A stretch of DNA of 37,391 nucleotides from a virus (IMGVR_UViG_3300019776_000202:1-37391); one strand, 5' to 3'. Shown: positions 4,579 to 36,397, counted from the stretch's first letter. Translations and numbers: made by a program. Notes: generated by a model from the sequence alone, not told the origin.

Positions 4579-4661
4579 AGGTAGTACCCTATGGGCAGGC
4601 CCCTGCAGCCAAAATCCCTCATAGAATGAGGGTCTTGGCAGGACAGGGCGGGACTAGGCGT

Positions 4662-4680
4662 GGCTACACCTTGGCTACAC
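4662..4680 (+). repeat. Right pair of GGCTACAC arm-type repeats
   Basis: GGCTACACC at 4662-4670 and GGCTACAC at 4673-4680 lie 11 bases apart in the same orientation as the left pair (4453-4473). They end about 30 bases before the integrase start and fit integrase arm-type sites on the other side of the attP core. Confidence 0.55.
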
Positions 4681-4712
4681 TGGACCTAGAGAAGCGGCAG
4701 ATAGGGGTCGTC

Positions 4713-5924
4713 ATGGCGATCAAGAGCAGTGGCCGAAGGCTCTCCGGGGACGGCAGCCTGTACCAGCGCAAGGACGGCCTGTGGGTCGCCGCGCTCGATC
4801 TCGGCTACGGCCCGGACGGCAAGCGCAAGCGATGGACCGGGTCAAGCCGCACCAAGGACGGCGCTCTGGCGAAGCTGCGCAAGGCCCGCGGTGAGGTCGA
4901 GACCATCGGCAACCCTCTGTCCCAAGGGTCGACACTCGGCGAGTACCTCGACGACTGGCTGGAGACAGTAGCCCGGCCGCGCATCCGCCCGAAGACCTAC
5001 AACGAGTACGAGCGATGCGTCCGGCTCCACCTCAAGCCGCGCCTCGGGCGCGAGCGCCTGGTGCGCCTGTCGCCTCAGAAGGTCCGCGCCATGGAGCAGG
5101 CGCTTGCCAGCGAACTGACACCGGCCACGGCCAACAACGTCCACCGCTGCCTGCGCACCGCCCTCAACGACGCGGTCGCCGATGGCCTCATCCCCCGCAA
5201 CCCCGCCGAGCACGTCACGCCGCCCCGCGCCGCCAAGGTCGAGCGCGCCCCCCTGACCGCCGCCCAGGCCACCACCGTCATCGCCAAGACCGCCAACGAC
5301 CCGCTCGGCTCCCGCTGGGCGTTCGGACTAATGACCGGCGTGCGCGCCGGGGAGACCCTCGGCCTCGAGTGGGACCGCGTCGACCTCGACACCGGCACCG
5401 CCGACATCTCCTGGCAGCTGCAGCGACTCACATACGACCACGGCTGCGACGGCACCTGCGGCCGCAAGCGTGGCGGCAACTGCCCCCAGCGCGTCCTCGA
5501 GGCGCCGGCCGACTTCGAGGTCCGGGCGCTCGACGACACCGGCCTTGTCCTCACCCGCCCCAAGACGGCCCGCTCCACCCGCATGGTCCCGCTCGCCCCG
5601 ACGCTCGTGGCGATGCTCAGGAAGCACCGCCGGACTCGGATCGGAGGAGGCCTGGTCTGGTCACGCCCGGATGGCCGGCCCATCGACCCGAAGGACGACG
5701 CCGCCGACTGGGACCAGCTGCTCAAGACGCTCGAGCTGCCCGACGTGCCGCTTCACTCGATGCGGCACACGACGGCCACGCTCCTCATGGAGATGGGCGT
5801 CGATGCCAAGGTCATCAAGGACATCCTCGGCCACACGTCGGTCACGACGACCCGCGGATACCAGCACACGGACGACGCGCTGGCCCGGCAGGCGCTGACC
5901 GCGCTTGGCGACTCCCTGAGCTAG
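4713..5924 (+). CDS. int: Tyrosine recombinase (phage integrase)
   Basis: This 403-residue integrase catalyses site-specific recombination between attP and the host attachment site. The ATG at 4713 with AGGGG upstream is preferred to the longer frame from 4626, which runs through the candidate arm sites. The order is an N-terminal arm-binding region (about 10-60), a SAM-like core-binding domain (about 75-170) and a catalytic domain (about 180-395). Catalytic residues visible are R211 (TGVRAGETLGLEW), K284 (RPKTARSTR), H348 and R351 (HSMRH), H374 (GHTS) and nucleophile Y383 (TTRGYQH). A Cys-rich insert (GCDGTCGRKRGGNC, about 244-257) interrupts the catalytic domain, as seen in many actinobacterial integrases. 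Its stop overlaps the convergent ImmA gene by four bases. Confidence 0.96.
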   Translation: MAIKSSGRRLSGDGSLYQRKDGLWVAALDLGYGPDGKRKRWTGSSRTKDGALAKLRKARGEVETIGNPLSQGSTLGEYLDDWLETVARPRIRPKTYNEYERCVRLHLKPRLGRERLVRLSPQKVRAMEQALASELTPATANNVHRCLRTALNDAVADGLIPRNPAEHVTPPRAAKVERAPLTAAQATTVIAKTANDPLGSRWAFGLMTGVRAGETLGLEWDRVDLDTGTADISWQLQRLTYDHGCDGTCGRKRGGNCPQRVLEAPADFEVRALDDTGLVLTRPKTARSTRMVPLAPTLVAMLRKHRRTRIGGGLVWSRPDGRPIDPKDDAADWDQLLKTLELPDVPLHSMRHTTATLLMEMGVDAKVIKDILGHTSVTTTRGYQHTDDALARQALTALGDSLS

Positions 5925-15082: not shown

Positions 15083-15265
15083 ATGGCGCTGTCGCTCGCC
15101 GACATAGACGAGGCACTCGAGCACCTGCGCTCAGTCCCCGAAGCCGAGCGCGGCGCCCCCTGGTCCGCGTACCTCGACTCCCTCCTCGAGCAGCGCGTCC
15201 TCCTCGCCGGCACCGACGCGCAGCTGCGCGAGACCCGCATCGTCACGTTCAGCGAGACCCGATGA
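15083..15265 (+). CDS. Small helical protein of unknown function
   Basis: This 60-residue protein starts 4 bases after an AGGAGA ribosome site. The sequence is helical and charged (ALSLADIDEALEHLRSVPEA and LDSLLEQRVLLAGTD). No known family is recognised. It is coupled by an ATGA overlap to the SAM methyltransferase gene, so a partner role is possible. The reading frame continues upstream to 14942, but the intervening terminator makes the short form more likely. Confidence 0.6.
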   Translation: MALSLADIDEALEHLRSVPEAERGAPWSAYLDSLLEQRVLLAGTDAQLRETRIVTFSETR

Positions 15266-15846
15266 CCGCCACGAAAACAGGGGGGGCAGGTATGGCCCTC
15301 ACCCTCGCCGACATCTACCCGGCCCACTCCGCTCCCGCAGGCTGGGGCGACAAGGGCACGGCTCACGACTACCTGCCCATCTACCAGCGCGAGATCACCC
15401 GCACTACGGGCGTGACGCTGCTGGAGATCGGCGTCTACGCCGGGCACTCCATCGCCATGTGGCGGGAGTACCTGACCGACTCCACTGTCATCGGCCTCGA
15501 CATCGACCTCAGCCACCTCGAGTACGGCGGCCTCGACATCCACCAATGCGACGGCACCAACGGCGCCGACGTCGAAGCCACCCTCCCCGGCCTCACCTAC
15601 GACTACGTCATCGACGACGGATCACACACCATCGCCGACCAGCTCGCCAGCCTCGCCGTGTTCCTCCCGCTCATGAATCCCGATGGCCGCTACTTCATCG
15701 AGGACATCACCGGGGACGCCGCACTCAGCGCCATCTGCCAGTACCTCGGCGACCACGGCTACGACGACATCGACATCTACGACGGCCGCGGCCCCGGCCG
15801 CCAGTCCGACGAGATCCTCCTCACGGTACGCATCCCCGCCCCATGA
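15262..15846 (+). CDS. SAM-dependent methyltransferase (class I, sugar O-methyltransferase-like)
   Basis: This 194-residue protein has a Rossmann-type methyltransferase fold. The SAM-binding motif LLEIGVYAGHSIAMW lies at about 53-67, an acidic residue after the second strand at V-I-G-L-D-I-D (about 76-82), and a post-motif D-Y-V-I-D-D-G-S-H (about 114-122). The G-T-A-H-D-Y start and the DDGSH segment resemble macrolide/sugar O-methyltransferases and related enzymes rather than DNA methylases; there is no D-P-P-Y or N-P-P-Y motif. The substrate is unknown. Sugar methylation would fit the glycosyltransferase cassette at 25433-28684, but the two lie 10 kb apart. Confidence 0.8.
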   Translation: MTATKTGGAGMALTLADIYPAHSAPAGWGDKGTAHDYLPIYQREITRTTGVTLLEIGVYAGHSIAMWREYLTDSTVIGLDIDLSHLEYGGLDIHQCDGTNGADVEATLPGLTYDYVIDDGSHTIADQLASLAVFLPLMNPDGRYFIEDITGDAALSAICQYLGDHGYDDIDIYDGRGPGRQSDEILLTVRIPAP

Positions 15847-22227: not shown

Positions 22228-23283
22228 ATGGCGCGCGCCCACTACTACTACCCGTACTTCGTCCAGGCGGCGAGCAACGACAAGACCGGCACCGTCACCG
22301 GATCGGCCACGTCCACGGGCAGCGCCGCGGGAGCCAAGGGCGGCCGCGGCACGGTCACCGGCACGGCGACCGGCGCTAACGGCACCATCTCCGGGCGCAA
22401 GGCCGCGGCCGGCACCGCGGTCGGCGCCGCATCGCAGCCGCCCGGCACCGTCACCGGCAGCAAGGGCGGCCGCGGCACCGTCACGGGCGAGGCCACCGGC
22501 CCGGCCGGAACCATCACCGGCACCGCGGCGGAAGCATCCAACGACAAGACCGGCTCAGTCACGGGCACGGCCACTGCCCCCGACGGCGCGATCTCCGGCC
22601 GCAAGGCCACCACCGGCACGGTCACCGCCACCGCCCCGCAGCCCGCAGCCACCGTCGCCGGGCGCAAGGGCGCCGCAGGCACGGTCGCAGGGTCGGTCAC
22701 CGCCCCGGCCGGCACCGTCACCGGCTCGGAGGGCTCACCCGGCACCGTCACCGGGTCGGCCACCGTCTCGGGCACAATCACCGGCCGGGCTGCCCGCCGC
22801 GGCACCGTCACCGGCAGCGCACCACAGCCCACTGCAGTCATCACCGGCACCGCCGACGAGCCGAACAGGACCGGCACCGTCACCGGTGACGCCACCGTCA
22901 CTGGCACCGTCATCGGCACCGCCTACGACCCCGACGCCCCCGACGTACCGGAACCCACCGGCGGTGGCCGCAACTACTACCGCCTCCAGTCGTGGGACGC
23001 CCCCGCGCCCATCACCAGGTCCGGCAAGGCCAGCGGCACAGTCGTGGCGCGGGCCACCGTGCGCGGCCGCTACGGCGTCCGCGGCACCGTCACAGGGGCC
23101 TGCACCATCACCGGGGGCACACGCGGCCGCAAGGGCACCCGCGGCCGCGCCTGGGACTTCACCCCTGACGTGCTCGCGGACGTGCGCGGGTGTCCGACCG
23201 CACCACGCGACCCCGAGTACCTGCGCCTGTACGCCGAGGTCCGGCGGCTGCGCCACGAGAACGAACTTCTGCTCACTCTGTAG
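22228..23283 (+). CDS. Thr/Gly-rich repeat protein (insertion 4), 10-11-residue repeats
   Basis: This 351-residue protein is built from about 20 short units of 10-11 residues centred on G-T-V-T-G and its variants (GTISG, GTITG, GSVTG, GTVAG, GTVIG). A larger duplication repeats SNDKTG at about residues 17 and 105, 88 codons apart. The N-terminus is aromatic (RAHYYYPYFVQ). After the repeats comes a non-repeat part (NYYRLQSWDAPAPITRSG), then more GTVTG units and a charged C-terminal helix (EYLRLYAEVRRLRHENELLL) that could trimerise. The pattern suggests an extended beta-rich or solenoid fibre. Thr richness makes it a candidate for O-glycosylation by the cassette at 25433-28684; this is inference. 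No known family is recognised. Confidence 0.66.
   Translation: MARAHYYYPYFVQAASNDKTGTVTGSATSTGSAAGAKGGRGTVTGTATGANGTISGRKAAAGTAVGAASQPPGTVTGSKGGRGTVTGEATGPAGTITGTAAEASNDKTGSVTGTATAPDGAISGRKATTGTVTATAPQPAATVAGRKGAAGTVAGSVTAPAGTVTGSEGSPGTVTGSATVSGTITGRAARRGTVTGSAPQPTAVITGTADEPNRTGTVTGDATVTGTVIGTAYDPDAPDVPEPTGGGRNYYRLQSWDAPAPITRSGKASGTVVARATVRGRYGVRGTVTGACTITGGTRGRKGTRGRAWDFTPDVLADVRGCPTAPRDPEYLRLYAEVRRLRHENELLLTL
22270..22905 (+). repeat. Array of degenerate 30-33-base repeats coding for GTVTG units
   Basis: The DNA repeatedly contains GGCACCGTCACCGG and close variants about every 30-33 bases. Two copies of a longer unit starting at 22270 and 22534 are 264 bases apart, coding for the same SNDKTG segment. 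The array is in frame with the 22228-23283 gene and is expected to expand or contract by recombination. Confidence 0.75.
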
Positions 23284-24072: not shown

Positions 24073-24122
24073 GCGCGCACCACATCACCCCTGCGCACCC
24101 ATCCCATAACCAAGGAGCACAC

Positions 24123-25328
24123 ATGTCGTATCTGCAGCGTCTCATCGACGCACAGAACGCGGACCTCCACGCGGCTCGGGCGTACATCGACCGTGCCGAC
24201 GAGGAGAACCGCGAGCTCAGCCACGAGGAGCGCACCGCCTGGGACGCCCTCAACTCCCAGATGGACCAGCGCGCCGCGCACATCGACGAGGTCAAGTCCG
24301 ACGAGGTGCGCTCGGCGCGCGTCGCCGACTCCCTCGCCGGCGCCCCCGAGCTGCGGGCCGACGCGCCCAACGCACCCGAGCCGGAGAACGTCGCGGCGAT
24401 CCTCAAGGATCTCGCCACGGGCCGTCGCTCGTCCTACGTGTTCGGCGCTGAGACCCGTGCGGTCTCCACGACCGGCACCGCGGGCGGCTACGCCATCCCC
24501 GAGGGCTTCGGCGGCCGCATCATCGCCAAGATGCTGACGGTCGGCCCGATGCTCGACGGCAACGTCGTCAACCTCATCCAGACCACGTCGAACCAGGACA
24601 TCCCGTTCCCGATTGAGAACGCCCGTCCCGTCGGCACGGCCACCGCGGAGGCAGCGACCTACGCCGACAGCACGTCCACGTTCACGCAGAAGACGCTCCG
24701 TGCGTACAAGTACGGGACTCTGCTGCTGGCCTCGGACGAGCTGCTCCAGAGCGAGGACGCTGGCCTGCAGGGCTACCTCGCCAACCAGCTCGGCGTTGCC
24801 ATCGGCACCGCCGTGAACAGCATCCTCACCCTCGGCACCGGCACCGTCCAGCCCGAGGGCCTGGCTGCCTCGGCAGGTTCCGGCGTCACGGGCTCGACCG
24901 CAGTCGCGGGCGTGCCCAACTTCGAGAACCTCGTGGACCTCGTCCACTCGGTCGACTCGCTGTACGCCGCCAGCCCCGCTGCCGGCTTCATGATGCGCCG
25001 CGCCACGCTCGGCTCTGTCCGCAAGATCAAGGACACCGCCGGCAACTACGTGTTCGTCCCGGCCCCCGCGGTCGGCATGGCGAACACGCTGTACGGCTAC
25101 CCGATCTACGAGAACCCGTACGTCGCTGCCACCGGCACGGCTACGAAGTCGATCCTGTTCGGCGACTTCTCGTACTTCCTGGTTCGCCAGGTCGGCGGCA
25201 TCGAGCTGTCCCGCTCCAACGAGCGCTTCTGGGACAGCGACCAGGTCGGCCTCAAGGTCCGCACCTGGGTGGACTCGTTCATCGGCCAGTCCGAGGCGAT
25301 CAAGTACTACCTCGGCGGCCCCAGCTAG
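24123..25328 (+). CDS. Major capsid protein (HK97 fold)
   Basis: This 401-residue protein starts after AAGGAG. The N-terminal about 100 residues form a charged coiled-coil scaffold (delta) domain (DEENRELSHEERTAWDALNS), likely removed by the protease at about residues 100-118. The mature part has the HK97 fold: the G-G-Y-A-I-P-E-G-F start, F-P-I-E-N, K-Y-G-T-L-L-L-A-S-D-E-L-L and the ending F-G-D-F-S-Y-F-L-V-R. No obvious cross-linking Lys/Asn pair can be judged from sequence alone. It sits alone between two hairpins (24029 and 25349), which would allow a separate high-level transcript. The glycosyltransferase cassette follows directly. Confidence 0.95.
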   Translation: MSYLQRLIDAQNADLHAARAYIDRADEENRELSHEERTAWDALNSQMDQRAAHIDEVKSDEVRSARVADSLAGAPELRADAPNAPEPENVAAILKDLATGRRSSYVFGAETRAVSTTGTAGGYAIPEGFGGRIIAKMLTVGPMLDGNVVNLIQTTSNQDIPFPIENARPVGTATAEAATYADSTSTFTQKTLRAYKYGTLLLASDELLQSEDAGLQGYLANQLGVAIGTAVNSILTLGTGTVQPEGLAASAGSGVTGSTAVAGVPNFENLVDLVHSVDSLYAASPAAGFMMRRATLGSVRKIKDTAGNYVFVPAPAVGMANTLYGYPIYENPYVAATGTATKSILFGDFSYFLVRQVGGIELSRSNERFWDSDQVGLKVRTWVDSFIGQSEAIKYYLGGPS

Positions 25329-25348: not shown

Positions 25349-25385
25349 GTCGAGGGGGGCGGAGCGCAGGACCGCCCCCCTCGAC
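25349..25385 (+). terminator. Strong terminator after the capsid gene
   Basis: A perfect 14-base stem joins GTCGAGGGGGGCGG (25349-25362) to CCGCCCCCCTCGAC (25372-25385) around a nine-base loop. It would end or limit the abundant capsid transcript before the sugar-modification genes. Confidence 0.82.
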
Positions 25386-25432
25386 TCACCCCTGCATCCT
25401 CCTGCGCACAACCCTGCGAACGGAATCCTGCG

Positions 25433-26710
25433 ATGAATCGAGCCGAACGCCGCCGTGCCCTGCGCGACGGAAAGACCGACAACCCGCTGGCGATCACCTG
25501 GGCCAGCAACTCCATCTTCGCCCCGACGGGCTACGGCACGCAGACGGCGCAGGCGGTTCGGCATCTTGCCGACGCCGGGCACCACGTCGCCATCGCCAAC
25601 AACTACGGCCTGCAGTCGGCGCAGATGGTGTTCGACGACATCGTCCACTACCCGCAGGGCGTCACGCCGTACAGCGACGACGTGATCGAGCCGACGTTCC
25701 ACGACTGGTCCAACCAGCACCCGGACGCGACCCCGCTGGTCATCGTGCTCTACGACGCCTGGCCGCTCAAGGCTCCCGCATGGGACCGGATGCCGGTCGC
25801 CATCTGGACGATGATCGACCATCTGCCCGCGCCGCCCGCGGTCCTGTCGTTCCTCAAGAAGTCGAACGTGACCCCGCTCGCGGCGTCGAAGTTCGCGCAT
25901 GAGCAGATCACCGCCGCGGGCATCGAGTCGATCTACGTCCCGATGGCTATCGACACGAACCTCTACAAGCCGACTGCGACATGGTCGAACGGTGACCGTG
26001 TGCTCACGGGCCGCGAGCTGATGGGCTTCGGCGACGAGGCCGAGGACGTGTTCATCTTCTCGGCCATCAACGCGAACAAGTCGGCGTCCGCGGTGCATCG
26101 CAAGGCGTGGGGCGAGAACATGCTGGCGTTCTCCGTGTTCGCGGAGATGCACGACGACGTGCGGCTCTACATCCACACGGAGCGCAACGGCCACCACGGC
26201 GGCGTGAACTTTGCCCCGCTGATGGAGTCGCTCAACATCCCGGACCACAAGTACCGCTTCGTGAACCAGTGGGCGCAGCACATCGGCATCCCGAACGACG
26301 CGATGGCCGCACTCTTCACGGCCACCGACTGCCTCTTGGCACCTACTCTGGGTGAGGGCTTCGGCCTCACCGTCGCGGAGGCGGGCGCCTGCCAGACGCC
26401 GGCCATCGTGTCGGACTTCACCTGCCAGCCCGAGCTCGTCAGCGAGGACTCCTACCTCGTCGGCGGCCAACCGTTCTGGGACTCCTACCAGGCGGCATGG
26501 TGGCAGACGCCGAACGTCGCGCAGATCGTCGAGGCGATGGAGGCCGCGTACCAGCGCGGCCGGTTCCGCAGCGTCAAGCAGCGCGAGCACGTCGTGGCGA
26601 ACTACGACGCCGACACCGTGTTCGAGACGCACTGGAAGCCCGCGCTCGAGGTTCTCGCGGCGAAGGCCGCTCCGGTTGCGGAGGTGGAGCCGTGGGCACC
26701 ATCGCGGTGA
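25433..26710 (+). CDS. GT4-like glycosyltransferase
   Basis: This 425-residue protein has GT-B fold features. The N-terminal half starts with W-A-S-N-S-I-F-A-P-T-G-Y-G-T-Q-T, a glycine-rich acceptor-side loop. The C-terminal half carries P-T-L-G-E-G-F-G-L-T-V-A-E-A-G-A-C, the E-x7-E-type motif of GT4 retaining glycosyltransferases, followed by P-A-I-V-S-D. It would transfer a sugar from a nucleotide donor to an unknown acceptor. No membrane span or secretion signal is present, so it acts in the cytoplasm, where virion proteins are made. It is the first of four genes between capsid and connector, after a terminator, with a weak ribosome site. Capsid or tail glycosylation is the favoured hypothesis; host-surface glycan change is an alternative. 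Confidence 0.86.
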   Translation: MNRAERRRALRDGKTDNPLAITWASNSIFAPTGYGTQTAQAVRHLADAGHHVAIANNYGLQSAQMVFDDIVHYPQGVTPYSDDVIEPTFHDWSNQHPDATPLVIVLYDAWPLKAPAWDRMPVAIWTMIDHLPAPPAVLSFLKKSNVTPLAASKFAHEQITAAGIESIYVPMAIDTNLYKPTATWSNGDRVLTGRELMGFGDEAEDVFIFSAINANKSASAVHRKAWGENMLAFSVFAEMHDDVRLYIHTERNGHHGGVNFAPLMESLNIPDHKYRFVNQWAQHIGIPNDAMAALFTATDCLLAPTLGEGFGLTVAEAGACQTPAIVSDFTCQPELVSEDSYLVGGQPFWDSYQAAWWQTPNVAQIVEAMEAAYQRGRFRSVKQREHVVANYDADTVFETHWKPALEVLAAKAAPVAEVEPWAPSR

Positions 26711-27399
26711 CCGGCGCGTCCGGCCACCTCGGTCGGGTGCTGGTCCCGTACCTGTGGGAGCGCGGCCACATCGTCGAGCCGGTCGGCCGGTTCATCAGCC
26801 CGGACCTCGACGCCGACGTCCTCATCCACGCCGCGGCGCCCGACTACAAGGACGACGACGCGGTGCGCGCCTTCGCCCCTTTCAACGAGGCCGTGGCCCG
26901 CTGGGCCGAGGTCACCGGCGGCCGCGTCATCAACGTCGGCTCCTGGTGGCAGTACGCCCACGGAGACGCCGCCAGGCTCGCCTACAGCCACCTCAAGGAC
27001 GACCAGTCGCAGATGTTCCCCACGACGGTGATCCCGTTCAGCGTCTACGGCTCCACCGCCCGAGAGGGCCGCGGCTTCATCCCGCAGCTGCTCGCCCACG
27101 TCCGAGGCTCTGGGACGGTCACAGCGGCGTCACGGGAGCCCCGGGACTGGTTGCATGTGCGTGACCTCTGTGATGCGCTGCGCGCCGCGCTGCGGGCACC
27201 TGACGGCATCTACGAGGCACGCACCGGACTGCAGTACAGCGCCGCGGAACTGCTCCGCTCGATGACGGGGGAGACGGTGCCGAACTGGCCCGACGTCCCG
27301 TCCTGCCGGCCCCACTACCTGTACCCGCAGGTGCCGGGCTGGACCCCGAAGGTCGACGTGCTCGCGCACCTGGCGCGCACCGTGGGGGCGGTCGCATGA
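26692..27399 (+). CDS. NAD-dependent epimerase/dehydratase-like protein (short SDR)
   Basis: This 235-residue protein starts with GTG, 19 bases inside the end of the glycosyltransferase gene, after a GGAGG-type site. The Rossmann start V-T-G-A-S-G-H-L-G-R (about residues 6-15) is the NAD(P)-binding glycine motif, and A-Y-S-H-L-K gives the catalytic Tyr-x3-Lys pair. The F-S-V-Y-G-S and D-W-L-H-V-R-D-L segments are also typical of extended SDR sugar-nucleotide epimerases. It is shorter than usual (about 300-340), with a reduced C-terminal domain. It probably makes or modifies the nucleotide sugar used by the neighbouring glycosyltransferases. Confidence 0.83.
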   Translation: MGTIAVTGASGHLGRVLVPYLWERGHIVEPVGRFISPDLDADVLIHAAAPDYKDDDAVRAFAPFNEAVARWAEVTGGRVINVGSWWQYAHGDAARLAYSHLKDDQSQMFPTTVIPFSVYGSTAREGRGFIPQLLAHVRGSGTVTAASREPRDWLHVRDLCDALRAALRAPDGIYEARTGLQYSAAELLRSMTGETVPNWPDVPSCRPHYLYPQVPGWTPKVDVLAHLARTVGAVA

Positions 27400-28040
27400 T
27401 CCCCGTGCTCATCGTCCCCGTCCTCGCCCGGCCCGAGCTGCTGTACCGGATGGTCAACTCCATCGACCACCCCGTCGGGCACCTGGTCATCATCGACAAC
27501 GGCGACGTCGTCGGTATCCCGCCCGCGACCCTGCCCGGCATCGACAAGGTCTCCGTTGTCCGGCTGCCGTCGAACCTGGGTGTGGCCGCCGCCTGGAACC
27601 TCGGGATCAAGCTCACCCCGCACGCGCCCTGGTGGCTGATCTGCAACTTCGACATCACGTTCCCGCCCGGCGCCCTCGAGCGGTTCGCCGCGATCCAGAC
27701 CGGGGGACTGGTGCTGTCCGCAGCTGCACCGCCGTGGGCGTGCTTCGCGGTCCACGACGAGACGATCCAGCACGTCGGCCTGTTCGACGAGTCGTTCTAC
27801 CCGGCCTACTGGGAGGACATCGACTACGAGCGCCGGGTCCGCTCGGCGGGCATCCCGGTGCTGCAGTCGAACATCGTCGTGGACCACGACAACTCCTCGA
27901 CCATCGCGTCGATCCCGAACCGCAACACTGAGACGTTCCACGCGAACCACGCCTACTACCAGCACAAGGTAGAGCGAGGCGACTTCTCCGAGGGCGGCTG
28001 GTCCTTGCAGCGTCGGCGCGAGCAGGCGTGGGACCGATGA
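27396..28040 (+). CDS. GT2-like glycosyltransferase
   Basis: This 214-residue protein has GT-A fold signs: an N-terminal P-V-L-I-V-P-V-L-A-R-P-E-L-L, then L-P-S-N-L-G-V-A-A-A-W-N-L-G-I (the donor-binding loop of GT2 enzymes), C-N-F-D-I-T (the D-x-D-like position) and Y-W-E-D-I-D-Y-E-R-R-V-R-S-A-G, the ED motif expected of inverting GT2 enzymes. It starts at an ATGA overlap with the epimerase gene. No transmembrane span is present. Its likely role is addition of a further sugar in the same pathway as the GT4-like enzyme. Confidence 0.84.
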   Translation: MIPVLIVPVLARPELLYRMVNSIDHPVGHLVIIDNGDVVGIPPATLPGIDKVSVVRLPSNLGVAAAWNLGIKLTPHAPWWLICNFDITFPPGALERFAAIQTGGLVLSAAAPPWACFAVHDETIQHVGLFDESFYPAYWEDIDYERRVRSAGIPVLQSNIVVDHDNSSTIASIPNRNTETFHANHAYYQHKVERGDFSEGGWSLQRRREQAWDR

Positions 28041-28684
28041 GCGACATCACGGTCATCGCCACCTGCTACGGCGACTACTGGGACACGTTCCACGAGCAGT
28101 GGGAGGCGTCCATCGCGGCGCTCGACCCGCAGCCCGCCCGCATCATCCTCGTGTCCGATGTGCCCCGCGACGTCCCAGCAGGGGTCGACAACATCGTGAT
28201 CGGCCCGGCGCACATGACCGACTACTGGATGGTTGGGGCGCTCGCCGCGACGACGACGTGGGTCAGCCTCTCGGGCTTCGACGACGTGTGGCTGCCCGAC
28301 GCCATGACGCCGTTCGAGACCGACGCCGACGTCTACGGCTTCCCCGTCATCATGACCGGCCTCATGTCAGGGATGTTCGCCTACTCCGGCGGGTACGAGT
28401 CAATCCTGCATGTCGGGCACAACCCGATGCTCGGGGACTTCTTCTACCGCCGCGACCTGCTCGAGCGGCTGCCACTGCGACGCATGGGCTACATGGACTG
28501 GGCGCACTTCTCCGAGATGCGCTACTTCGGCTACAAGTTCGACGCCGGCGGCCCGCCGCGGGCGCTCAAGACCCGGCACCCACAGGCCATCAGCCTGGTC
28601 AACCGGCCGGACTTCCAGCACGAGATCGACGACTTCAAGGCCCGGCTGCTCGCCGGACTCATCGAGGAAGGGGTGCCACTTTGA
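28037..28684 (+). CDS. GT-A-type glycosyltransferase-like protein
   Basis: This 215-residue protein starts at an ATGA overlap. Its pattern I-T-V-I-A-T-C-Y-G-D-Y-W-D, R-I-I-L-V-S-D, and G-F-D-D-V-W-L-P-D-A-M resembles a GT-A glycosyltransferase with a D-D-x-W acidic site in place of the classic D-x-D. Later segments (GDFFYRRDLLERLPLRRMGY) are poorly conserved. It is the third transferase-like gene of the cassette. Specificity is unknown. The next gene, the connector, begins with TTG inside its stop, so the cassette is translated within the structural operon rather than as a separate insertion with its own end. Confidence 0.7.
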   Translation: MSDITVIATCYGDYWDTFHEQWEASIAALDPQPARIILVSDVPRDVPAGVDNIVIGPAHMTDYWMVGALAATTTWVSLSGFDDVWLPDAMTPFETDADVYGFPVIMTGLMSGMFAYSGGYESILHVGHNPMLGDFFYRRDLLERLPLRRMGYMDWAHFSEMRYFGYKFDAGGPPRALKTRHPQAISLVNRPDFQHEIDDFKARLLAGLIEEGVPL

Positions 28685-29295
28685 GCATCACCAATGGCTA
28701 CGCCACCCTCAACCAGCTCAAGGTCTGGGTCGGCGTCGGCACCGCGGATGCGGTCGACGACACGATGTTCGAGATGGCAATCGAGTCAGCCTCCCGCATG
28801 GTGGACGATGACTGCGACCGCGTCTTCTACGCCAGCGGCACCGCCGTCGCCCGCGTGTTCGCCCCGTCCGACCACTACGTCGCGCACATCGACGACGCGA
28901 TCGCCATCACCTCCATCCAGACAGACGAGGATGAGGACGGCGTCTACGAGACGACGTGGGCCACGACCGACTACCAGACGGAGCCACTGAACGGCGTCGT
29001 CGGCGGGCAGGCGTGGCCGATCACCCGGCTGCGCGCCATCGGCACGAAGAGGTTCGACGACGACGACGCGCAAGCCACGCTCAAGGTGACCGGGCAGTGG
29101 GGCTTCGGCACCGCGACTCCCATCGCCATCACGCAGGCCACGCTCATCCTCGCCTCTCGCATCTACAAGCGCGCGGACTCGCCCCTGGGCGTCGCGGGCT
29201 TCGGCGACATGGGCGCGATGCGGGTCACCCGCAACGACCCGGACTACTCCAACCTCATCTCGCGCTACATCCGCACGAAGGTCAGCACGGCGTGA
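28681..29295 (+). CDS. Head-tail connector protein (Gp6-like)
   Basis: This 204-residue protein starts with TTG in a TTGA overlap. The N-terminal T-L-N-Q-L-K-V-W-V-G helix, then I-E-S-A-S-R-M-V-D-D-D-C-D-R-V-F-Y, and the later A-T-L-I-L-A-S-R-I-Y-K-R match the Gp6-type head-completion adaptor family. It forms the ring that joins the portal to the tail. A middle beta-rich domain (VYETTWATTDYQTEPLNGVV) is also typical. Its position after capsid-type genes and before the tail terminator and tube genes supports the call. Confidence 0.8.
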   Translation: MSITNGYATLNQLKVWVGVGTADAVDDTMFEMAIESASRMVDDDCDRVFYASGTAVARVFAPSDHYVAHIDDAIAITSIQTDEDEDGVYETTWATTDYQTEPLNGVVGGQAWPITRLRAIGTKRFDDDDAQATLKVTGQWGFGTATPIAITQATLILASRIYKRADSPLGVAGFGDMGAMRVTRNDPDYSNLISRYIRTKVSTA

Positions 29296-30140: not shown

Positions 30141-30178
30141 CACCCGCTCCACACCCTGCGACGTAAGGAGTACCTGCG

Positions 30179-35104: not shown

Positions 35105-36397
35105 ATGGCGACTCAGACTCTCGCGAACCTTGGCACGGGCGGCACTGCGCTGAACGCGCAGATCGGCTCAACCACGGGCTCGGACTCGAACGACCCGATG
35201 TTCCTCGACTGCACCGGCACGCCCTACGTCTACCTGCCGGGCGTAAACGGCAACACGATGGCGACCCCTGACGCCGCTGCCCTGGACATCACCGGCGACA
35301 TCGACGTTCGGATGCAGGTCGCGATGGACGACTGGACCCCGGCGGCCGTGCAGGTACTCGCCTCCAAGCTGTCAATCGCTGCCAACTACTCCTGGTACCT
35401 GTACCTCAACACGGACGGCACTCTGGCCTTCTCGCACTCCTCGGACGGCACTGCCCTCAAGACGGCAACATCCTCGGCTGCGACGGGCGTGACGGACGGC
35501 GCGGTAAAGTGGATTCGGGCCACCCTCGACGTCAACAATGGCGCCGGCGGCTGGGACGTGAAGTTCTACACCTCTGACGACAACGTCACCTACTCGCAGC
35601 TAGGCGTCACGCGGACCACGGCCACGGTCACCAGCATCTTCTCCGGCACGTCGCAGATTGAGATCGGCGGCTACCTCATCGGGGCGCAGACGATGGCGGG
35701 GAAGGTGTACCGCCTACTGATCTACTCGGACCTGACCGGCACCACGAAGGTGCTGGACGTTGATGCGTCCGTCCTCACCACGGGATCAGCGGCCACGTTC
35801 ACGGCGGTCACGGGGCAGACCATTACGATCAACCGCTCGGCGGCGGCCCGCAAGGCCGTCGCGGTCGTCTCGCCGTGCTACCTGTTCGGCAGCGACGACT
35901 ACATGACCATCGCCGACAACAGCCTCCTCGACTTCGCCGCCGCGGACCCGTTCACCGTAGTGGCCGTGGTCCGGCAGTGGGCGACTCCCTACCCGTATGG
36001 AGCCTTCGCCTCGAAGCGGTCAGGCGCCAGCGGCGCGGGCTACGACATCTCGAGCAACAACACGGCGCTCTCCAACCGCACCTTCGTCACAGATGGGGCC
36101 AACTCGGCCGGGCCGACCACGGCAGTGGCAACCTCCGGCGCGCTCAGCAGCATCGTCCTCGTTGTCGACAGGGCCGCGGTCGTGGCACGCCCCTACCTCA
36201 ACGCGGTCGCCGGATCGACTGCGTCCACGTCAGCCGTCGGCTCACTGGCAAACGCGATGTCGTTCCGAGTGGGGTCGATGGGGGACTCCACCTATTACCA
36301 GGACTTCGAGCTCATCTCCGTTGCCGTGTTCCGACGCATCCTCAGCACCACCGAGATCGCCAGCATCTCCACCTACTACCAGGCGAGGTTGTCCTAA
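35105..36397 (+). CDS. Minor tail protein with two lectin-like (LamG/concanavalin-type) domains
   Basis: This 430-residue protein starts at ATG one base after the previous stop. Its first half (about 60-230) has the pattern of a concanavalin-like lectin sandwich: P-D-A-A-A-L-D-I-T-G-D-I-D-V-R, W-Y-L-Y-L-N-T-D-G-T-L-A-F and a matching ending. The second half (about 255-425) repeats the layout with D-Y-M-T-I-A-D-N-S-L-L-D-F-A-A-A-D-P-F-T-V and F-R-R-I-L-S-T-T-E-I. LamG-type domains commonly bind sugars, so this is a candidate receptor-binding or tail-fibre protein recognising surface glycans. Internal duplication of the domain is evident from the matching patterns. Confidence 0.76.
   Translation: MATQTLANLGTGGTALNAQIGSTTGSDSNDPMFLDCTGTPYVYLPGVNGNTMATPDAAALDITGDIDVRMQVAMDDWTPAAVQVLASKLSIAANYSWYLYLNTDGTLAFSHSSDGTALKTATSSAATGVTDGAVKWIRATLDVNNGAGGWDVKFYTSDDNVTYSQLGVTRTTATVTSIFSGTSQIEIGGYLIGAQTMAGKVYRLLIYSDLTGTTKVLDVDASVLTTGSAATFTAVTGQTITINRSAAARKAVAVVSPCYLFGSDDYMTIADNSLLDFAAADPFTVVAVVRQWATPYPYGAFASKRSGASGAGYDISSNNTALSNRTFVTDGANSAGPTTAVATSGALSSIVLVVDRAAVVARPYLNAVAGSTASTSAVGSLANAMSFRVGSMGDSTYYQDFELISVAVFRRILSTTEIASISTYYQARLS

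Follow-up and report, generated by a model that had tools for sequence, protein, structure and literature searches.

Why does a phage carry four sugar-enzyme genes inside its head-tail operon, directly after the gene for its major capsid protein (MCP), and what do their products modify? We took up this question in the window (37,391 bp, an entire virus record of IMG/VR), for which a first-pass annotation had proposed a translationally coupled cassette that glycosylates the virion with a sugar tailored by the phage itself.

Gene layout and enzyme families

Four plus-strand open reading frames (ORFs) for sugar enzymes were confirmed between the MCP gene and the TTG-started connector, now with family or fold support (Table 1). 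All cassette junctions overlap: the GT4 and SDR genes share 19 nt, and the following junctions are ATGA, ATGA and TTGA, the last leading into the connector gene. These overlaps fit the translational coupling that had been proposed for the four genes. In comparison with two close relatives, dN/dS was 0.19–0.42 for the four genes, 0.25 for MCP and 0.33–0.35 for the connector. All four are thus under purifying selection and are therefore not chance ORFs.

Table 1. Features of the MCP-connector region, in window coordinates
Feature	Coordinates	Strand	Evidence or remark
MCP, HK97-type	24123..25328	+	Phage_capsid 3.3e-51; constant upstream neighbour of the island
14-bp hairpin 3' of the MCP stop, loop AGCGCAGGA	25349..25385	+	no U-tract
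TCCTGCGC, putative pseudoknot partner upstream of the GT4 start	25400..25407	+	perfect 8-nt loop complement
Second CCTGCG copy	25413..25418	+	alternative loop partner
Third CCTGCG copy	25427..25432	+	abuts the GT4 ATG
GT4 (GT-B) glycosyltransferase	25433..26710	+	PF00534 1.1e-8, phrog_2170 9e-27; constant core gene among the island versions
Compact extended-SDR nucleotide-sugar epimerase/dehydratase/reductase, 235 aa	26692..27399	+	PF01370 5.7e-14; GTG start
GT2-family (GT-A) glycosyltransferase	27396..28040	+	PF00535 2e-6, phrog_29879 4.5e-42
Second GT-A glycosyltransferase (fourth gene)	28037..28684	+	phrog_9549 1e-4; alignment; predicted fold
Head-tail connector, TTG start	28681..29295	+	phrog_5938 6e-14; constant downstream border of the island

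The first gene encodes a GT4 enzyme: its C-terminal GT-B nucleotide-sugar domain scored above the PF00534 cut-off and carries the EX7E motif, as EGFGLTVAE. When 29 sequences were aligned, G307-E308-G309-F310-G311 was invariant and E316 nearly so. The nearest solved structure to the GT4 profile was that of chlorovirus B736L (3oy2; 1e-11, with about 146 profile positions aligned).

The second gene had been read as a short epimerase/dehydratase. Its identity held up (an Epimerase match, PF01370, above the cut-off), whereas its start required correction: the long ORF opens at ATG 26497, and the start conserved in relatives is GTG 26692, which follows a strong Shine-Dalgarno sequence, GGAGGTGGAG. 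The extended-SDR signature (TGxxGxxG with S/T and YxxxK) is present as TGxxGHLG, S/T84 and Y98xxxK102, all intact, as are T7, G8, G11 and G14 (5/5 aligned members). The protein is only 235 aa long, against ∼300–350 residues for the full-length fold. Since the motifs are kept and the length is similar in all five members, we regard the enzyme as probably intact and naturally compact, not truncated. Profile searches matched MoeE5, dTDP-glucose 4,6-dehydratase and UDP-glucose 4-epimerase (GalE), neighbours that are not enough to name its sugar. Judging its fold or naming its reaction from a predicted structure was dropped, the model being too poor (pLDDT 49).

The third protein scored above the cut-off for PF00535, the GT2 family with its GT-A fold and DxD-like motif. 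The fourth protein alone gave no significant Pfam match. Among 15 aligned relatives its D82-D83 and D154-W155 are invariant, and its AlphaFold2 model (pLDDT 77) was matched by Foldseek best to the fucosyltransferase WrtF (E 1e-9) and also to RmlT (E 4e-9), so that it is predicted to be a GT-A fold glycosyltransferase. The identities and order given in the first-pass annotation (GT4, epimerase/dehydratase, GT2, GT-A) were in this way each supported by homology, fold or motif.

Elsewhere the window encodes an integrase (4626-5924), RecT-like and ParB-like proteins, terminase, portal, prohead protease and tail genes; a tRNA called within the protease gene was dismissed as spurious. Upstream of the terminase genes, a Methyltransf_24-like protein (15262-15846; 2.5e-5, a weak match just under the cut-off) could have either sugar or DNA as its substrate. 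Just 5' of the protease gene, 22228-23283 encodes a protein of repeated GTVTG-type segments, for which no family match was found. A tail-region protein (35105-36397) has a concanavalin A-like lectin domain (Laminin_G_3, 2.8e-7) that makes it a likely glycan binder. Searches of cultured phages gave no match by megablast with the region or by tblastn with the epimerase and the fourth gene, and a connector-profile search of genome contigs, made to find a prophage or host, revealed no relative.

GT4 beside the capsid gene

Synteny was scanned using the connector or MCP as bait, never a glycosyltransferase (GT), and taking the best 80 matches each. GT4 lay directly after MCP and before the connector in 44/44 loci listed by the connector-baited scan that contained both. 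The MCP-profile scan placed GT4 next after MCP in all 74 listed loci with at least 700 nt of downstream DNA, and between MCP and connector in all 49 that reached the connector; these matches include near-duplicates and a few shared contigs, and the constancy is that of this clade. It spans considerable divergence, with MCP identity among the GT4-bearing listed loci dropping to about 34%. By contrast, GT-less relatives of the MCP or connector have no GT between the two genes. In the Rhodococcus phages Shagrat and REQ1, and in five GT-less MCP relatives (Rhizobium, Sinorhizobium, Escherichia, Serratia and Ruminococcus phages), MCP leads to the connector region directly or via one small ORF.

Divergence of GT4 follows that of MCP. 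Over 74 slots the GT4-MCP distance correlation was rho 0.83, a value reached by 0/500 permutations, compared with 0.76 for GT4-connector and 0.70 for MCP-connector. Adjacency alone could explain part of this correlation.

The rest of the slot varies. Among the matches listed, ∼100 distinct slots held ∼15 gene combinations, from GT4 alone (L042, L090) up to four or five genes. Their contents include GT2, two GT-A families, several SDR families (epimerases and RmlD-like proteins among them), cytidylyltransferase, methyltransferases and a second GT-B-like family without a Pfam match of its own. The gap from GT4 to connector was less than 120 nt in ten listed slots, one of them L113, where a GT4-GT2 fusion occupies the whole slot as one 669-aa protein (L113:5004-7013). 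The window's four genes recur at 75–88% identity in two close relatives, L038/L118/L119 (one contig) and L040. Both L038 and L040 have extra DNA between the SDR and GT2 genes that is absent from the window; in L038 an HNH endonuclease gene has been inserted within the sugar cassette (L038:5132-5719). Judged from these sequences, the cassette represents one form of an island that varies in content but keeps GT4 as its first gene. The first-pass annotation had missed this pattern, in which GT4 is the only constant gene and the other island genes are exchanged.

Hairpin after the capsid gene and putative pseudoknot

A terminator had been assigned between MCP and the cassette, and this assignment did not survive. 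The hairpin there is not followed by the U-run that a GC-rich intrinsic terminator has, and a terminator scan gave no call in the window; some relatives do have a T-run. The element is more likely a structured RNA. All 126 of 126 distinct loci have a strong hairpin 3' of the MCP stop. In 81 of the 126, at least 6 nt of the loop are perfectly complementary to a site inside the next 70 nt, and 22 of 31 GT4 lineages show such a complement in at least half of their members. Controls gave far lower values: swaps between dissimilar loops yielded a complement in 5.9%, and other hairpins in 30 of the loci in 2/32 (6%). The loop and its partner change together, with pairs such as CGCAGG/CCTGCG, TTGTAGGT/ACCTACAA, GTGCAG/CTGCAC, GCACAG/CTGTGC, CCCGTG/CACGGG, GCCTGTG/CACAGGC and TTCACGG/CCGTGAA. 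Counted back from the predicted start of GT4, the partner begins at a median of 22 nt, which puts it immediately upstream of where the ribosome-binding site is expected. In the largest lineage fewer than half of the members have a 6-nt match, many having one of 5 nt, and eight further lineages are also below this level; the element as defined is therefore not universal. No Rfam model matched the element, either in the window or in six relatives.

Further CCTGCG copies were noted in the MCP leader (24090-24095) and in the leader of the gene after the tail tube (30155-30178), and the loop might pair with these as well. We also considered the loop motif as a repeated double-stranded operator and rejected this reading: same-orientation matches of at least 6 nt occurred in 5/126 loci, as against 81/126 with complementary ones. 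Their rarity favours base pairing, though CCTGCG does recur at the two leaders just named. Pairing of the loop with the GT4 leader is probably a pseudoknot, previously unreported, that controls GT4 expression. It offers a concrete regulatory RNA candidate where annotations usually show a simple terminator.

Proposed function and known systems

Virion glycosylation, with the capsid as most likely acceptor, is in our judgement the best explanation of the island, and a likely one. It is supported by the enzyme families and folds, by MCP-GT4 synteny and by the exchange of sugar genes. The earlier proposal that the phage glycosylates its virion with a sugar of its own tailoring thereby gained support from homology and from synteny found with non-GT baits. 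MCP is the likely acceptor because it is the fixed neighbour and because GT4 divergence tracks it best; the late-operon neighbourhood itself is a sign of timing and linkage, not of substrate, and the GT4 sequence does not itself point to an acceptor. A conserved G-G-A-S tail at the MCP C terminus was considered as the acceptor site and rejected, one GT-less MCP ending in MAAS and others differing. In the scheme we propose, GT4, constant in the clade, would attach or begin the sugar on a virion protein, most likely MCP. The SDR enzyme would turn a host precursor into a modified nucleotide sugar, while extension or capping of the glycan would fall to the GT2 and GT-A enzymes. Swapped accessory genes would probably lead each lineage to display a different glycan, and pairing of the hairpin loop with the GT4 leader would probably set GT4 translation relative to capsid.

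The acceptor might instead be the tail tube or another tail protein, in which case this would still be virion glycosylation. Connector and tail genes come directly after the island, and PMC12619734 describes both capsid and tail-tube subunits of mycobacteriophages as glycosylated. We nevertheless think a tail acceptor unlikely: the fixed neighbour is MCP, and GT4 tracks MCP more closely than it does the connector or next gene, in a comparison that covered genes other than the tail tube. More doubtful is a role at the host surface, where the enzymes, like those of seroconverting prophages, would alter a glycan and so keep out superinfecting phages or stop progeny from re-adsorbing. Seroconversion cassettes normally lie near the integrase or attachment site, with flippases or membrane GTs; the genes here have a fixed place between capsid and connector, and the domains they match are of the soluble kind. 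The window phage does have an integrase, and its nucleotide-sugar enzymes and GT2 chains are reminiscent of genes for wall polysaccharides, yet phiPsal1, lytic according to its authors (PMC6106888), retains the same slot.

A paper on freshwater actinophages reads their GTs as serving DNA protection, cell-wall modification or superinfection control (PMC10202952), a view that counts against virion glycosylation and favours DNA protection or cell-wall modification. Glycosylation of phage DNA against host nucleases, which is known in other phages, seems improbable at this locus all the same. No base-hydroxymethylating or other base-priming enzyme was found among the window ORFs tested, the Pfam families of T4-type DNA glucosyltransferases were unmatched, and the site is a late operon, by the capsid gene. 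Least credible is that the slot simply tolerates the insertion of genes gained by horizontal transfer that have no function in common. Its content varies and the close relative L038 even has an HNH endonuclease there, but GT4 is invariably first, the recognisable contents are almost all sugar enzymes, and the genes are under purifying selection.

Returning to virion glycosylation, we tentatively put forward a fuller picture: a large, mostly uncultured clade may have an obligatory capsid-glycosylation gene beside MCP, exchangeable sugar genes that give each lineage its own glycan, and a new pseudoknot between hairpin loop and GT4 leader that holds enzyme output proportional to capsid. The literature searched yielded no description of a variable GT island linked to MCP. 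Three points appear new: the constant association of GT4 with MCP, the exchange of glycan genes and the probable pseudoknot.

The closest known arrangement is that of the Pontimonas phage phiPsal1 (MG835450), among the relatives found the sole cultured phage whose slot holds GT4 as well as GT2. Its order is MCP, GT4, methyltransferase, GT2, neck. The slot is thus the same, between MCP and neck/connector; GT4 and GT2 are 37% and 44% identical to those of the window, and its portal, protease, MCP and connector are also homologous. It differs in having neither the epimerase nor the second GT-A enzyme, and instead a methyltransferase on the opposite strand. The phiPsal1 genome paper does not discuss these genes, and reports that the phage was lost (PMC6106888). 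Microcystis phage Mae-JY09 and Synechococcus phage S-CBS4 resemble the window in carrying GT4 with other sugar genes in the head cluster. Their loci differ in identity (26–34%) and order, the S-CBS4 genes preceding protease and MCP. The closest solved GT4 relative by profile, B736L, is from a eukaryotic algal virus and is distant; chloroviruses glycosylate their own capsid. For the RNA element, a parallel is repZ of ColIb-P9, whose translation depends on a pseudoknot upstream of its ribosome-binding site (PMC8383071). The placement is alike, whereas repZ is a plasmid replication gene with an antisense RNA, and the pairing proposed here is putative.

The first-pass annotation had pointed to mycobacteriophages, in some of which GTs beside structural genes would glycosylate capsid or tail proteins. 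According to PMC12363180 and PMC12619734, which cite Freeman 2023, capsid or tail-tube proteins of Che8, Corndog and Myrna are glycosylated by phage GTs. The parallel stands for phage-encoded GTs that decorate the virion; for Che8, the phage compared, it does not extend to kinship with GT4 or to location. In Che8 the three GT genes form a row (gp108-110) at 56.2-58.7 kb in a genome of 59.5 kb, a long way from the genes for structural proteins, whereas the window cassette adjoins MCP. A blastp comparison of gp108-110 with the island proteins gave no match at E 0.01; gp109 has a weak profile match to the GT2 family, and the three are not detectably homologous to the GT4 or GT-A enzyme. Virion glycosylation is known from a few mycobacteriophages and usually seen as an accessory trait. 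In the present clade, which is environmental and widespread, a gene for sugar transfer seems to belong to the core of the head module, while the glycan chemistry around it is changeable. This core position suggests a basic role for the glycan, for example in particle stability or host attachment.
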